NCBI GenBank assembly: GCA_021739635.1
Contig: JAIPBH010000001.1
Coordinates: 293,209 to 357,208, forward strand
Direction of reading: 5' to 3'
Source of the DNA: Flavobacteriaceae bacterium
GTDB lineage: Bacteria > Bacteroidota > Bacteroidia > Flavobacteriales > Flavobacteriaceae
Length of the DNA: 64,000 nucleotides
Part shown: one piece after another, positions 14,717 to 36,083 of the stretch
How the letters are laid out: the number at the start of each line of letters is the position of its first letter
How positions within the stretch are numbered: position 1 is the first letter of the stretch
Notes under the pieces: generated by a model
What the model was told of the DNA's origin: nothing
What the model saw: only the letters and a program-made list of their open reading frames with translations
The model's database searches: none
Translations under genes and position numbers: made by a program

Positions 14717-14790
14717 GCCGATGTAGCTCAGCTGGCTAGAGCAGCTGATTTGTAATCAGCAGGTCGTGGGTTCGAGTCCCTCTATCGGCT
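14717..14790 (+). tRNA. tRNA-Thr(TGT)
   Basis: 74 nt cloverleaf: acceptor GCCGATG pairs with TATCGGC, anticodon loop ttTGTaa, T-loop TTCGAGT, discriminator T, CCA not encoded. First tRNA of the Thr-Tyr-Gly-Thr group before tuf. An identical copy lies at 31426-31499. Confidence 0.96.
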
Positions 14791-14824
14791 CAAGTTCTTT
14801 AAATAGAGTGAATAGTTTTTAATT

Positions 14825-14906
14825 GGGGAGATACTCAAGCGGCCAACGAGGACAGACTGTAAATCTGTTGGTTTCACCTTCGCAGGTTCGAATCCTGCTC
14901 TCCCCA
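14825..14906 (+). tRNA. tRNA-Tyr(GTA)
   Basis: 82 nt with the long variable arm of a class II tRNA. Acceptor GGGGAGA pairs with TCTCCCC, anticodon stem ACAGA/TCTGT around loop ctGTAaa, T-arm GGTTCGAATCC, discriminator A, no encoded CCA. Confidence 0.95.
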
Positions 14907-14936
14907 CATTTTAAACATTGGATTTTATAATTAATT

Positions 14937-15009
14937 GCGGGAGTAGCTCAGTTGGTAGAGCGTCAGCCTTCCAAGCTGAATGTCGCCGGTTCGAACCCGG
15001 TCTCCCGCT
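14937..15009 (+). tRNA. tRNA-Gly(TCC)
   Basis: 73 nt. Acceptor GCGGGAG pairs with CTCCCGC, anticodon loop ctTCCaa in stem TCAGC/GCTGA, T-arm GGTTCGAACCC, discriminator T, no encoded CCA. Confidence 0.96.
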
Positions 15010-15019
15010 CTTTTTTTAA

Positions 15020-15091
15020 GCCGGTGTAGCTCAGGGGTAGAGCGTTTCCTTGGTAAGGAAGAGGTCACGGGTTCAATTCCCGTCATTGGCT
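15020..15091 (+). tRNA. tRNA-Thr(GGT)
   Basis: 72 nt. Acceptor GCCGGTG pairs with CATTGGC (two G-T pairs), anticodon loop ttGGTaa, T-arm GGTTCAATTCC, discriminator T. It lies 63 bp before tuf, as thrT does before tufB in E. coli. Confidence 0.95.
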
Positions 15092-15154
15092 CTATCAAAG
15101 TTTTAAAAAATTGACACTAATATTATTATATAACTAAGATTAAATAAATTAAAC

Positions 15155-16342
15155 ATGGCAAAGGCAAATTTTGATCGTTCCAAACCACATTTAAACATTG
15201 GTACAATTGGACACGTAGATCACGGTAAAACAACTTTAACAGCTGCTATTACAATGGTATTAGCTAAGGCTGGATTATCAGAAATGAGAAGTTTTGATTC
15301 TATTGATAACGCTCCTGAAGAAAAAGAAAGAGGTATTACTATTAATACATCTCACGTTGAGTATTCAACTGCAAATCGTCACTATGCCCACGTTGACTGT
15401 CCAGGTCACGCCGATTATGTAAAAAACATGGTTACTGGTGCTGCTCAAATGGATGGTGCTATTATTGTTGTTGCTGCTACTGATGGTCCTATGCCACAAA
15501 CTCGTGAGCACATCTTATTAGGTCGCCAAGTAGGTATTCCTAGATTAGTTGTATTCATGAACAAAGTGGATATGGTTGATGATGAGGAATTATTAGAGTT
15601 AGTAGAAATGGAAATCAGAGATTTATTATCATTCTATGAATATGATGGTGATAACACTCCTGTAATTTTAGGTTCTGCTTTAGGAGGATTAAATGGAGAT
15701 GATAAATGGGTTCCAAAAATCATGGAATTAATGGAAGCGGTTGATAACTGGATTGAATTACCTCCTCGTGATGTTGATAAGCCATTCTTAATGCCAATTG
15801 AAGATGTATTCTCTATTACTGGTCGTGGTACTGTTGCTACTGGTCGTATAGAAACAGGTATCGCTAATACTGGTGATGTTGTTGATATTATCGGTATGGG
15901 TGCTGAAAAATTAACTTCTACTATTACAGGTGTTGAAATGTTCCGTAAAATATTAGATAGAGGTGAAGCTGGAGATAACGTAGGTATCTTATTAAGAGGT
16001 ATTGAAAAAACTCAAATCTCTAGAGGTATGGTTATTTGTAAAAAAGGTTCTGTAACTCCACACGCTAAATTTAAAGCTGAGGTTTATATCTTGAAAAAAG
16101 AAGAAGGTGGACGTCATACACCATTCCATAATAACTATCGTCCACAGTTTTATGTTCGTACAACTGACGTAACTGGTACTATTTCTTTACCATCTGGAGT
16201 AGAAATGGTTATGCCAGGTGATAACTTAACAATTACTGTTGAGTTAATTCAACCAATAGCAATGAACTTAGGTTTACGTTTTGCAATCCGTGAAGGAGGT
16301 AGAACTGTTGGTGCTGGACAGGTAACTGAGATATTAGACTAA
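15155..16342 (+). CDS. tuf: Elongation factor Tu
   Basis: 395 residues with GTPase motifs [23 protein letters not shown] and NKVDM, then the two beta-barrel domains ([31 protein letters not shown]). EF-Tu delivers aminoacyl-tRNA to the ribosome. Codon use is strongly biased, as expected for an abundant protein. It follows four tRNA genes and precedes tRNA-Trp, secE and nusG, the widely conserved order. Confidence 0.98.
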
Positions 16343-16366
16343 TTTAGTTTAAACAAATAGTAAGCT

Positions 16367-16393
16367 AAGGTATTCCGTTTTTCGGAATACCTT
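16367..16393 (+). terminator. Stem-loop between tuf and tRNA-Trp
   Basis: AAGGTATTCCG (16367-16377), 5-nt T loop, CGGAATACCTT (16383-16393): a perfect 11-bp stem. There is no T run after it, so it may be a processing or mRNA-end-stabilising hairpin, or a weak terminator, separating tuf from tRNA-Trp. Confidence 0.6.
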
Positions 16394-16404
16394 GACTTAT
16401 GTTT

Positions 16405-16478
16405 ACGGGTTTAGCTCAGTTTGGTAGAGCACTGGTCTCCAAAACCAGGTGTCGGGAGTTCGAGTCTCTCAACCCGTG
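16405..16478 (+). tRNA. tRNA-Trp(CCA)
   Basis: 74 nt. Acceptor ACGGGTT pairs with AACCCGT, anticodon stem CTGGT/ACCAG around loop ctCCAaa, T-loop TTCGAGT, discriminator G, no encoded 3' CCA. Located between tuf and secE, as usual in Bacteroidota. Confidence 0.96.
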
Positions 16479-16589
16479 CTTGGAAATATTAATTTTCTTT
16501 TTGAATTATAAATTTTAAAAGATATATACGAGACAATAATTTTATTAATAAATAAGATTTTAATCCGTTAAAAATAAAGAAAAATATAA

Positions 16590-22600: not shown

Positions 22601-23494
22601 GATGATTACGCGCATTTAGTATCTGGAAAATGGACTACAGATGATCACACAAATGATTTAGTTGCTGATTTAATTCACAATTATAAAATTAAAGAAAACG
22701 ATTTACAAGGTTCTTTAAGACGTGAAAAGTTTACTATTTCTGTTGGAGATGAATTACCAGCTGGAATTATTAAACTAGCTAAAGTTTATATCGCTAAAAA
22801 ACGTAAGTTAAAAGTAGGTGATAAAATGGCAGGTCGTCACGGTAACAAAGGTATTGTAGCTCGTATAGTTCGTCATGAAGATATGCCATTCTTAGAAGAT
22901 GGAACACCAGTTGATATTGTATTAAATCCACTTGGAGTACCATCACGTATGAATATAGGTCAGATATATGAAACTGTTCTTGGTTGGGCTGGACAAAAAT
23001 TAGGTCGCACATATGCAACACCTATTTTTGATGGTGCTACCTTAGATCAAATTAATGAATTAACAGATGAAGCTGGAATTCCAAGATTTGGTCATACATA
23101 CTTATATGATGGTGGAACTGGTGAGCGTTTTGATCAACCAGCTACAGTTGGGGTTATCTATATGTTGAAATTAGGACATATGGTTGATGATAAAATGCAT
23201 GCTCGTTCAATAGGACCTTACTCATTAATCACACAACAACCTTTAGGTGGTAAAGCACAATTTGGTGGTCAACGTTTTGGTGAGATGGAGGTTTGGGCAC
23301 TTGAAGCTTATGGTGCTTCGGCTACATTACGTGAAATATTAACAGTAAAATCTGATGACGTTATTGGTAGAGCTAAAACGTATGAAGCCATTGTTAAAGG
23401 TGAGCCAATGCCAGAACCTGGACTACCAGAGTCTTTCAACGTGTTAATGCATGAATTGAAAGGTCTTGGATTAGACATAAGACTAGAGGAATAA
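19682..23494 (+). CDS. rpoB: RNA polymerase subunit beta
   Basis: 1270 residues from ATG 19682; the TTG three bases earlier is a less likely start. Conserved segments include [33 protein letters not shown], the rifampicin pocket with the usual sensitive residues (D of FMDQ, H of THKRR, S of LSALG), then [48 protein letters not shown], and [27 protein letters not shown] near the end. Catalytic core subunit. Confidence 0.98.
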
Positions 23495-23513
23495 ACAAAT
23501 AGTTAGCAGTAAG

Positions 23514-23573
23514 CAGTGTTCAGTAAACAGTCCAACTGCGTACTATATACTGAACACTGAACACTGAATACAG
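23514..23573. repeat. Inverted/direct repeat element between rpoB and rpoC
   Basis: CAGTGTTCAGTA (23514-23525) is a perfect 12-bp inverted match to TACTGAACACTG (23548-23559). A smaller CAGT/ACTG hairpin sits in the loop, and after the right arm GAACACTGAA is partly repeated. It fills most of the 95-bp rpoB-rpoC gap. ACTGAACACTG-type repeats of this sort occur in flavobacterial intergenic DNA. It could be a processing hairpin or an inserted short repeat. Confidence 0.65.
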
Positions 23574-31425: not shown

Positions 31426-31499
31426 GCCGATGTAGCTCAGCTGGCTAGAGCAGCTGATTTGTAATCAGCAGGTCGTGGGTTCGAGTCCCTCTATCGGCT
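31426..31499 (+). tRNA. tRNA-Thr(TGT), second copy
   Basis: 74 nt, identical base for base to 14717-14790. Own promoter upstream and terminator just after, so a single-gene unit. The duplication probably raises tRNA-Thr(TGT) dosage. Confidence 0.97.
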
Positions 31500-31502
31500 C
31501 TT

Positions 31503-33830: not shown

Positions 33831-33860
33831 AAAAGCATCCTAATTTTAGGATGCTTTTTT
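33831..33860. terminator. Terminator after the alpha/beta hydrolase gene
   Basis: AAAAGCATCCTAA pairs with TTAGGATGCTTTT. The better T run is on the plus strand (33853-33860), although the minus gene ends at 33860, so it is probably bidirectional. The rest of the 207-bp gap shows no gene. Confidence 0.7.
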
Positions 33861-34783
33861 TATTTTATAAAATTTAATAATTCATCAATGAGTTGAGGCG
33901 CTATTTTTCTATTTGGCTCATTGTATGATTTTGAGTTTTCTAAATTATCACCATCAATGGCGACTAATACATGATTCATATTATCAAGTAATTTTAAAAT
34001 AGAACTTGGTACGGCTTCATTTAGTTGAACAGCTTCTTTAGTTTCTACCTGCAAATCTTTAGTGCCATTAATTAATAGTATTGGCATTTTAAGTTTTTTT
34101 ATTTCTTCTGTAGGGTTGTATTGCATCCAATTCATCATGAAAGACTGAATATCTTTATTGAAAACTGAGGCTAATTCCATTGGGAAATCATCTGTTTTAA
34201 TTCCTTTTCTTAAACTATCAACCACTCGTTTTGCATCATTTGATAATATAGGATATGTTTTAGCAATTTGCTCAAGAATAATATTGTCAATAGATTGAGC
34301 TGGTCCAGAAATAGAAATAAATCCATCCACTTTGTCTTTAGCTGCTAGCATTCCAACCAAACTACCTTGACTATGACCAATTATATATATGTGATTAAAG
34401 TTTCCATCTTTTTTGAAGTACTCAATAACAGAAGTAGCATCTGTAACAAAATCGTCAAAAAGTATGTTACGGTCTATTCTGCCTGTTTTAATTTGTTTTA
34501 CAACACGTTTATCATACCTAAAGGTTGCAATATTGTTATTGGTTAAATCTTCAGCTAATTTTTTTAATGAATTATTATTTAAAAAACTTTGGTTTCCATT
34601 TCTATCTGTTGGACCAGAACCGCCAATAATAATGGCTAAATGTGGTTTTGTTATATTATTTGGGGTTAAAAGTGTTCCATCAATAAAGTTATTAACTTGA
34701 ATATCTTGTGAATTAAAAGACATGTTTTGAGAGTATGATTTTATAAAACACAATACTGAAAATATTAAAATTTTAGTTTTCAT
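33860..34783 (-). CDS. Secreted alpha/beta hydrolase
   Basis: 307 residues. Signal peptide (MKTKILIFSVLCFIKSYSQ). Catalytic Ser138 in GHSQG, with an oxyanion-type IIIGGSGPTDRNGNQ earlier, an Asp in LLINGTKDLQVE and a likely His in NMNHVLVA. Resembles exported peptidase/esterase-like hydrolases of the S33/DLH type. Substrate unknown. No partner gene nearby. Confidence 0.82.
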   Translation of the reverse strand: MKTKILIFSVLCFIKSYSQNMSFNSQDIQVNNFIDGTLLTPNNITKPHLAIIIGGSGPTDRNGNQSFLNNNSLKKLAEDLTNNNIATFRYDKRVVKQIKTGRIDRNILFDDFVTDATSVIEYFKKDGNFNHIYIIGHSQGSLVGMLAAKDKVDGFISISGPAQSIDNIILEQIAKTYPILSNDAKRVVDSLRKGIKTDDFPMELASVFNKDIQSFMMNWMQYNPTEEIKKLKMPILLINGTKDLQVETKEAVQLNEAVPSSILKLLDNMNHVLVAIDGDNLENSKSYNEPNRKIAPQLIDELLNFIK

Positions 34784-35013
34784 TTTTTTAAATAATAGGT
34801 TTCTGGATTAAACTGTAATGATATCTGATTTATTATTATGGCAAGTAAAAATATATTAAAGTTGAAGATATTTTTGTTTTTTTTGAACTAAATATTAAGT
34901 AGTTATTATAATATTTTTATAGGAATAATATATCAATTTACATATAAATGTTAAAATATAATGTATTACATCGAAAAAATATACATTTAATCGGTTTAAA
35001 ACAATTTTTATGT

Positions 35014-35021
35014 TACTTTTG
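35014..35021 (+). promoter_or_regulatory. -7 box of RNA copy 1 (TACTTTTG)
   Basis: TACTTTTG fits TAnnTTTG and lies 4 bp before the conserved transcribed part. The equivalent TATTTTTG is at 35335-35342. The spacing is kept although the bases between differ. Confidence 0.5.
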
Positions 35022-35025
35022 GTGT

Positions 35026-35169
35026 GTACTAAATAACATACTTTTTAGTTCAATGGATTAATTAATTAATATTTGCATTTTGTAATAGTTATAGTAACCC
35101 TAAATCTATCTTCAAAATAAAAAAAAGCAAATTGACGAAAAACCGAGATTGAGGGATCTCGGTTTTTTT
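35026..35169 (+). ncRNA. Candidate small RNA, copy 1
   Basis: About 145 nt between a TAnnTTTG box and an intrinsic terminator. The 5' part can fold (ACTAAA at 35028-35033 with TTTAGT at 35044-35049). The middle has TTAATTAATTAAT and an A-rich run. The end is AACCGAGAT/ATCTCGGTT with a 6-nt loop, then seven T. No start codon leads to a meaningful frame. I recognise no known RNA family. Confidence 0.65.
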
Positions 35170-35334
35170 ATGCATTAAATTTAAGTAGTTTAATTAAGCA
35201 ACTTTTAAAACTATTTTTCTGTTTTCATTAGGTTGTTTTTAATATAAAAATAATCAATTTTCGTATAAATGTTAAAATAAAACGCATTTCATCGAAAAAA
35301 TATTCATTTAATCGGTTTTAAACAAATTTTATTA

Positions 35335-35342
35335 TATTTTTG
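35335..35342 (+). promoter_or_regulatory. -7 box of RNA copy 2 (TATTTTTG)
   Basis: TATTTTTG, at the same offset as the box of copy 1. Confidence 0.5.
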
Positions 35343-35346
35343 AAGC

Positions 35347-35490
35347 GTACTAAATAACATACTTTTTAGTTCAATGGATTAATTAATTAATATTTGCATT
35401 TTGTAATAGTTATAGGAACCCTAAATCTATCTTCAAAATAAAAAAAAGCAAATTGACGAAAAACCGAGATTGAGGGATCTTGGTTTTTTT
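35347..35490 (+). ncRNA. Candidate small RNA, copy 2
   Basis: Same as copy 1 apart from one T-to-G (near 35416) and a C-to-T in the terminator stem, which keeps pairing as G-U. Its T run abuts the alkB stop (35490-35492); the hairpin may also end alkB, since the minus-strand side has five T. Confidence 0.65.
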
Positions 35491-36083
35491 TATGCAATAA
35501 TTCTAAAGGTTAAATTAATTCGTTCTCCAATTTTTCTTTTAGTTTTTGGTAATTGATGCAACCAATTTTTTTGTGTGTCACCTTTCATTAATAAAAGACT
35601 ACCATGATTTAATATAATCTTTGTTTTTAAATTAGGTTCATATTTATGTTTAAAATGAAAAATGCGTTCAGCTCCAAAAGTAACAGACGCAATAATTGGT
35701 TTATTGCCTAATTCTTTTTCATTATCGGCATGCCATCCGTTACTATCTTGTCCATTTCGGTATAAATTTGCTAAACAAGTTGTAAATTTTGCATCAATTA
35801 CTTTTTCAATAGCATCTTTTATTTCTAACAACTCTTTTGTGAATGGTTTTGGATGCATTGTTATATTTGAATAGGTATAAGACAGTTTATTACTAGCGTA
35901 TAAAGCTGTTAATCGCGGTTGTAGATATGTTTTTCCAAAAACTGTAATAGTGTCTTTTTGCCATTCAACAGTATTTAAAAGAGTTTTAAAATAGTTATTT
36001 GATAATTTATCATTGAAAAAATGTGGATAATACATAACATCAGCATCTTTCATATTTAAATTTATTTCACTTTCAAAGCGCAT
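35490..36083 (-). CDS. alkB: AlkB-family 2-oxoglutarate/Fe(II) dioxygenase
   Basis: 197 residues. Iron ligands His118 and Asp120 (NGWHADNE) and His176 (NWLHQLPKT), with 2-oxoglutarate contacts at Arg187/Arg194 (RINLTFR). The family oxidatively removes alkyl lesions from DNA or RNA. Cytoplasmic. Divergent from the VanX-like gene by 39 bp. The upstream Met1 is taken; Met11 is possible. Confidence 0.92.
   Translation of the reverse strand: MRFESEINLNMKDADVMYYPHFFNDKLSNNYFKTLLNTVEWQKDTITVFGKTYLQPRLTALYASNKLSYTYSNITMHPKPFTKELLEIKDAIEKVIDAKFTTCLANLYRNGQDSNGWHADNEKELGNKPIIASVTFGAERIFHFKHKYEPNLKTKIILNHGSLLLMKGDTQKNWLHQLPKTKRKIGERINLTFRIIA

Follow-up and report, generated by a model that had tools for sequence, protein, structure and literature searches.

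The window, a 64,000-nt stretch of DNA from a Flavobacteriaceae bacterium, carries two tandem units that are almost certainly copies of a conserved structured small RNA (sRNA) family, widespread among marine relatives in a large Flavobacteriaceae clade. Our preferred reading, which we put at even chances, is that this sRNA is a co-induced decoy (target mimic) for a second sRNA, encoded between sodA and purF. A wider circuit is proposed more tentatively, at somewhat less than even chances: in roughly half of the family genomes sampled, an often-repeated sRNA with a ~40-nt near-invariant seed would silence a gene for a 42-aa protein and others, and the sRNA described here, together with an otherwise dissimilar sRNA-like unit (the C4 unit), both under the target's operator, would copy the leader and lift the silencing.

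Two tandem sRNA units in a gene-free gap

The gap without genes spans 34784-35489, in agreement with the 706 bp given by the initial annotation. It is flanked by a hydrolase-like gene (33860-34783) and an AlkB-like gene (35490-36083), both on the minus strand; protein names here and below come from reading translations, except where a family search is cited. The tandem copies first described are real, direct repeats at 34932-35169 and 35253-35490 with 93% identity across 238 nt and a spacing of 321. Of the 138 positions compared in their transcribed parts, two are substituted (T/G at 70, C/T at 135), and the terminator tract of copy 2 has one T more than that of copy 1; in the 90 nt upstream (34936-35025 in copy 1), 15 positions differ. 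The divergence first reported, 2 of 144 against about 14 of 90, therefore holds for the two transcribed substitutions, and has to be amended for the extra T and the upstream count. As had been noted, the C-to-T change in the terminator of copy 2 preserves pairing by turning G-C into G-U.

Both copies fold more stably than their dinucleotide shuffles (z -2.97 and -3.17). A TAnnTTTG box precedes each copy, as claimed, and a box of this type begins at -12 in 97/100 homologues. A consensus scan of 34784-35600 gave no excess of sigma-70-type promoters (10 vs 7.3 expected) and 0 intrinsic terminators. The proposed intrinsic terminator thus escapes the scan, although its hairpin and T-run are evident by reading the sequence and are retained in homologues; the consensus rule missed it, we think, because the T-run is base-paired to a run of A within the stem. 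With its own promoter, a terminator (by reading and in homologues), conserved structure and no open frame that reaches 60 aa, each unit has the sequence features expected of an independent small RNA (Table 1).

Table 1. Positions of the sRNA copies and their elements in the window
Feature	Position	Strand	Details
Predicted operator, copy 1	34948..34994	+	ATGTTAAAA 34948-34956, ATTACATCGA 34965-34974, second box TTTAATCGG 34986-34994
Promoter box (TAnnTTTG), copy 1	35014..35021	+	TACTTTTG
Small RNA copy 1	35026..35169	+	144 nt; start predicted by the promoter box and end by the terminator
5' hairpin, copy 1	35026..35051	+	From folding; 99.4% of cells paired in the structure-fitted alignment A6
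33-nt core, copy 1	35044..35076	+	GGAUUAAUUA invariant in 97/97 rows
Middle domain, copy 1	35071..35132	+	Closing stem 35071-35076 with 35127-35132
Proposed decoy site, copy 1	35098..35110	+	CCCTAAATCTATC; 13 pairs (2 G-U) with the seed of the sodA-purF sRNA
Terminator hairpin, copy 1	35138..35169	+	Fixed apex UUGAGGGA at 35149-35156
Predicted operator, copy 2	35269..35315	+	ATGTTAAAA 35269-35277, ATTTCATCGA 35286-35295, second box TTTAATCGG 35307-35315
Promoter box (TAnnTTTG), copy 2	35335..35342	+	TATTTTTG
Small RNA copy 2	35347..35491	+	145 nt; anatomy as copy 1
Core, copy 2	35365-35397	+	Closing stem 35392-35397 with 35448-35453
Proposed decoy site, copy 2	35419..35431	+	CCCTAAATCTATC
Terminator hairpin, copy 2	35459..35491	+	One G-U replaces G-C; apex 35470-35477

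Distribution of the RNA family

Searched against Rfam at gathering score, the whole window yielded tRNAs only, and five homologue loci yielded one tRNA and nothing else. Up to E 10, the interval 34700-35600 gave ten sub-threshold matches, none of them to 6S RNA, Flavo-1 or tmRNA, which bears out the original placement of the unit outside known families. These permissive matches were rejected, all being sub-gathering and mostly terminator-like; the top Bacteroides match, BTnc060, reached 24.2 bits (E 0.22) vs a gathering score of 228.9 and aligns mainly to the terminator. The window's tRNAs include a cluster at 14717-16479, in the order Thr, Tyr, Gly, Thr and Trp, and another tRNA-Thr(tgt) ~15 kb away, at 31426-31500.

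The unit is present in all 7 genomes of its own genus. The initial annotation had proposed a covariance search of Flavobacteriaceae, and the model that we built from 12 sequences of the genus (R1) matched 99 of the 299 family genomes sampled, in 80 of 236 genera. At least 100 bits were scored by 85 of the 102 match rows; two of the 99 genomes, G181 and G219 (36 bits), are doubtful. A second model, R2, was built from 100 matches. It matched 6/246 genomes in a sample of the order, all of the same family and including G496, where the match is a terminator at a gene end, and 4/198 in a sample of the class, namely the source genome and three chance-like matches. We accepted G225 as a distant homologue and rejected the out-of-clade matches G496, G573, G598 and G660, which mostly reflect a resemblance between terminators or hairpins and lack the fixed apex; G660 has 13 letters in common with the core. 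The core pattern occurs in at least 119 stretches of named species genomes. Among the matches listed are Winogradskyella, Algibacter, Psychroserpens, Gelidibacter, Bizionia, Olleya, Lacinutrix, Tamlana, Mangrovimonas, Flavivirga and relatives, and none from Flavobacterium, Polaribacter, Tenacibaculum or Maribacter.

Conservation of structure and core

To read covariation from an alignment made without structure, we used A7 (97 sequences). RNAalifold retained two helices on A7, the closing stem AUUUGC/GCAAAU and the terminator, with two-sided changes in 10 of their 18 pairs. In these helices 99.7% of cells pair, vs at most 62% in slid versions, and 99 cells are two-sided vs 27 in shuffles (0/500 as high). 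The structure-fitted alignment A6, which is biased towards its structure, has changes on both sides in 24/40 pairs (206 cells; 0/500 shuffles as high), and its helix 4 is just 70% paired. Conserved RNA structure, which had been claimed from the two copies, is thus supported by compensatory changes, in homologues far outside the strain.

The terminator apex letters UUGAGGG are invariant in 97/97 A7 sequences, and the stem beneath varies, with U-A, G-C and A-U at one pair. Within the core, UUUAGUUCAAUGGAUUAAUUAAUUAAUAUUUGC, the letters marked in Table 1 are invariant and most of the remaining letters are conserved in more than 90% of sequences. The core contains AUG GAU UAA (35053-35061 and 35374-35382), that is, a start, one sense codon and a stop, perhaps by accident; it also contains a 14-nt palindrome, ATTAATTAATTAAT.

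Synteny and duplication history

We examined 175 loci, made up of the 95 sources of A6 and 80 named loci, with species partly overlapping. There was synteny on both sides: the nearest upstream gene is hydrolase-like at 94 loci, an AlkB-like gene lies next downstream on the opposite strand at 116, and 159 loci have a same-strand gene for an M15-dipeptidase-like protein downstream, which at many starts ~60 bp past the RNA. At all 7 loci of the source's own genus, the RNA is preceded by the hydrolase-like gene and followed by the AlkB-like gene. Such a frequent same-strand neighbour, often so close, would suit a cis element of the dipeptidase-like gene (a leader, attenuator or terminator region); we consider this very improbable, since the AlkB-like gene intervenes at its 116 loci, the window included, and the RNA closes with a conserved terminator-type hairpin.

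One copy was found at 170 loci and two at 5, copy number at the 80 named loci being counted by exact core only. All 5 two-copy loci belong to the source's own genus, where 5 of 7 genomes have two. As the duplication was seen in one genus only, the RNA is conserved and its occurrence in pairs is not, and the initial description of "conserved paired RNAs" is not supported. A tree of the genus copies, with modest support, groups the downstream copies of G004, G005 and G006 with both source-genome copies and the single G003 copy (97/95); the upstream copies of G005 and G006 pair together (91/86), as do both source-genome copies (97/92). In the 12 genus sequences, column pair 55-90 is U-A in six and A-U in six. 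From this modestly supported tree, one duplication within the genus would have been followed by loss in some genomes and by homogenisation or renewal in the source genome. The near-identity of the source-genome copies suggests either local homogenisation or a recent duplication, and the paralogue types appear older in three relatives.

That the two copies stand in tandem might point to a repeat or mobile element, an explanation that we find scarcely credible. The next match in the source genome after the two copies had E 0.01 (35.6 bits), that is, no full third copy was found; phage and plasmid collections gave no match to the unit; the neighbours are constant, and the RNA covaries.

A predicted upstream operator is shared with other transcripts

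In the homologues, TGTTAA sits 77-78 nt ahead of the start in 97/100 and a CATCGA-type box at -62/-63 in 84/100. Patterns for the second operator box and for a further upstream box matched only 3/100 and 22/100 homologue promoters, respectively, so these two boxes rest on reading by eye. The two-box operator pattern has four sites in the source genome (0 for the reversed pattern): at both sRNA copies, upstream of a secreted leucine-rich-repeat (LRR) protein gene (contig C23, ~23480-23530, minus; L027) and upstream of one further ORF, which comes after a response-regulator and histidine-kinase pair. Across the family, TGTTAAAW-N(5-9)-YRTTTCRTCGA occurs in 119/299 genomes, with 3 matches for the reversed control. 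We fetched 30 operator loci and assigned 13 to the sRNA, 2 to LRR genes, 8 to small-protein leaders (of which L271 was recognised by eye and L256 and L277 by a later protein search), 1 to an sRNA-like unit and 6 to other contexts. As judged from sequence, the predicted operator thus also precedes a 42-aa protein gene, the secreted LRR gene and a second sRNA-like unit, which is new here. Its binder may be a LytTR protein, a candidate that we considered from the spacing of the boxes.

The 42-aa protein (for example MNIATNLPELPTNDESKFKETLKENLEFFKGLVYLTKKIFML) was found at E of 0.01 or less in 122/299 genomes, the weakest of these matches being unsure. It had no match in NCBIfam up to E 1 and a single match in Pfam, at E 0.19. 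Of 29 loci of its gene, 22 have a CoA-transferase-like gene upstream and 28 have an ABC-ATPase-like gene downstream. In the source genome the gene lies at C9:50297-50422 on the plus strand (L326 / L286), under the shared operator, and a metalloprotease-like ORF follows it. A 29-aa relative-like ORF sits at the operator in L254 and L255.

The second sRNA-like unit, the C4 unit (L283, minus, ~600-720), has the operator upstream and a terminator-like end. A unit resembling it was seen in L276/L320.

A proposed partner sRNA lies between sodA and purF

The other operator transcripts contain CCCAAAUCUACC. The related pattern CCNAAATCTAYC has 10 sites in the source genome vs 8 for its reverse, so the count is uninformative; the locations are informative. 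We analysed seven of the ten: two lie in the sRNA copies, two in the C4 unit, one in the 42-aa leader at C9 and two at C12. The C12 sites are antisense to a tandem pair of minus-strand units (L287, ~153570-153850), ~70 nt each and spaced 200 bp apart, between SOD-like and PurF-like genes. Each has a 40-nt seed between a TAnnTT-type box and a terminator. The same layout of box, ACCAUAACAUAAGUAGGUUAAGUU(C/U)AUGGUAGAUUUGGGGC and terminator, with few changes, was seen in the loci read, and the seed includes AAGUUCAUGGUAGAUUUGGGG. The gene neighbours are PurF-like upstream at 26/28 loci and superoxide-dismutase-like downstream at 24/28. Rfam searches of seven partner and related loci gave at best 36.3 bits vs a gathering score of 47.

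The seed complement CCAAATCTACCATNAACTTAA, a count that takes in leaders as well as antisense units, occurs in 153/299 family genomes, one to four times each (reversed control 0). The distribution of the RNA is nested within this one: the complement is present in 95 of the 99 genomes with the RNA vs 58 of the 200 without it, and two or more sites occur in 84 of those 95 vs 16 of those 58. The R1-matched genomes without the exact complement are G021, G281 and the weak matches G181 and G219. This co-occurrence may be due in part to shared descent.

The leader of the 42-aa gene is complementary to the partner seed through the start codon; at most 2/200 shuffles were as good for 25 of 29 leaders, the exceptions being L334, L338, L341 and L351. 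The LRR leader AAUUAAUCCCAAAUUUA pairs with the seed too (9/1500 shuffles as good). The C4 unit carries the motif CCCAAAUCUA twice, and the second occurrence covers most of the seed and enters the terminator-like hairpin.

Predicted pairing of the sRNA with the partner seed at a candidate decoy site

The best ungapped helix between the RNA and the seed, through CCC(U/C)AAAUCUA(U/C)C, had -17.2 kcal/mol, equalled by 1/1500 shuffled RNAs and 0/1500 shuffled seeds. In 94/100 homologues the best helix falls on the same columns, and for 83/100 at most 1/100 shuffles was as good, the sequences being related and so not independent. Against the reversed seed, the homologues had a median of -7.8 and an extreme of -18.1. 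Two other measures were weaker: by length with G-U allowed, 207/5000 shuffles reached 13, and once bulges and loops were permitted, the two copies were equalled by 56 and 47 of 2000 shuffles. The C4 unit gave a better helix than the sRNA copies (-23.7), and the cofold gain with the seed was -10.1 kcal/mol for the RNA, -28.2 for the 42-aa leader and -31.5 for the C4 unit. The site lies partly within weak intramolecular helices, and the frequent U/C change in CCC(U/C)AAAUCUA preserves both the pairing to the seed G and the inner hairpin. The RNA thus has what a target mimic should have in its sequence, a complementarity to the seed that exceeds chance, though more weakly by two measures, at a site that copies the leader.

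Since each copy has a site that would bind the second sRNA, the sRNA may be a decoy that frees the target. The upstream operator TGTTAAAA-N7-TGYATTTCATCGA, with its second box ~20 nt on, is presumably bound by an activator, which would drive the sRNA, the 42-aa gene, the secreted LRR gene and the second sRNA-like unit together. The middle domain of the sRNA would display the near-invariant segment CCC(U/C)AAAUCUA as a copy of the partner's site in the 42-aa leader. The sodA-purF sRNA would bind the leader of the 42-aa mRNA and silence it; when the operator is active, the sRNA would titrate the sodA-purF sRNA and help to release its targets, with the second copy adding dose. The RNA family and its structure, the shared operator, a complementarity beyond shuffles, the synteny and the nested distribution are computed results; transcription, the activator, silencing and titration are the steps of this scheme that we infer.

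The CCC(U/C)AAAUCUA motif might instead be the site of an RNA-binding protein common to the co-regulated transcripts, in the manner of Csr/Rsm, with the sodA-purF sRNA as competitor or regulator. Its presence in the 42-aa leader, the C4 unit and the sRNA, all under one operator, would agree with this. We nevertheless hold a protein site to be improbable, because it would not need such extended complementarity: an exact antisense sRNA-like unit exists, and the complementarity runs far past the motif, through the start codon.

The core, the most conserved stretch, plays no part in the decoy mechanism, and we count this against the decoy reading. An alternative that gives the core a role is a conventional trans-acting sRNA in which the core is the main working part, through short mRNA seeds or protein binding, and CCC(U/C)AAAUCUA is a target or cross-talk site for the sodA-purF sRNA. 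The core is the longest near-invariant stretch and is unpaired apart from its ends, and the terminator apex is fixed as well, all of which fits this alternative. However, the core complement AATYCATTGAAC occurs in the source genome at the two copies only, with no other 12-nt complement, so no long antisense target of the core is evident, and we rejected the core as a long antisense seed. Tested directly, the sRNA pairs with the LRR and 42-aa leaders no better than shuffles do (338/1500 and 350/1500 as good), and both were rejected as direct targets. A trans-acting core also leaves the shared operator and the shared motif unexplained, and we regard it as a possible but unlikely account.

Relation to known systems

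Bacterial sRNA sponges and target mimics are known, such as the chbBC decoy of ChiX in enterobacteria. The decoy proposed here would be alike in that the RNA copies the sRNA's target site and would be expressed alongside the genes that it frees; the mimic here is a separate 144-nt structured RNA with an extra core, the partner sRNA is usually repeated, and titration is a prediction. The sRNA, operator, partner sRNA and small-protein target would form a complete circuit, directly testable in common marine bacteria. Seeds and cores that are near-invariant across 30-40 nt in many genera are unusual for sRNAs and need explaining, and the covariance models of the sRNA could enter Rfam.

RNA regulation in the Bacteroidota has been studied mostly in Bacteroides. 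FopS and GibS are paralogous multi-copy sRNAs of that genus, as described in PMC11697453. Both systems are multi-copy in Bacteroidota, and the sodA-purF partner has the FopS/GibS layout of a 5' single-stranded seed followed by a terminator and would likewise act at the translation start. The sRNA of the window differs by its 5' hairpin, closing stem and middle stems and is single-copy at most loci; with these further helices, it is not of the FopS/GibS type as described there (a 5' seed, then a terminator alone). No FopS match was found among the Rfam matches up to E 10 in 34700-35600, and Rfam may lack FopS.

A text search of open-licence papers found no description of the sRNA unit, the partner sRNA or the 42-aa protein, and turned up Rfp18, a structured sRNA of Flavobacterium psychrophilum that is widely conserved in Flavobacterium according to PMC9723704. 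Rfp18 comes from the same bacterial family and is likewise conserved and structured; the two are compared here by description and distribution. In 299 genomes of g128, a very large genus taken from its size to be Flavobacterium, R2 gave 4 weak matches, none of which has the core, apex or operator. These (L376-L379) were rejected as matches that mostly reflect terminators or hairpins and lack the fixed apex.

OmrA/OmrB and PrrF1/PrrF2 are tandem sibling sRNAs. They resemble the window's pair in being adjacent, near-identical sRNAs with the same kind of control, whereas the duplication here is found in one genus and other loci have a single copy. OmrA/B are also named in PMC11697453. In the source genome, the proposed decoy and the proposed silencer both occur as tandem pairs.
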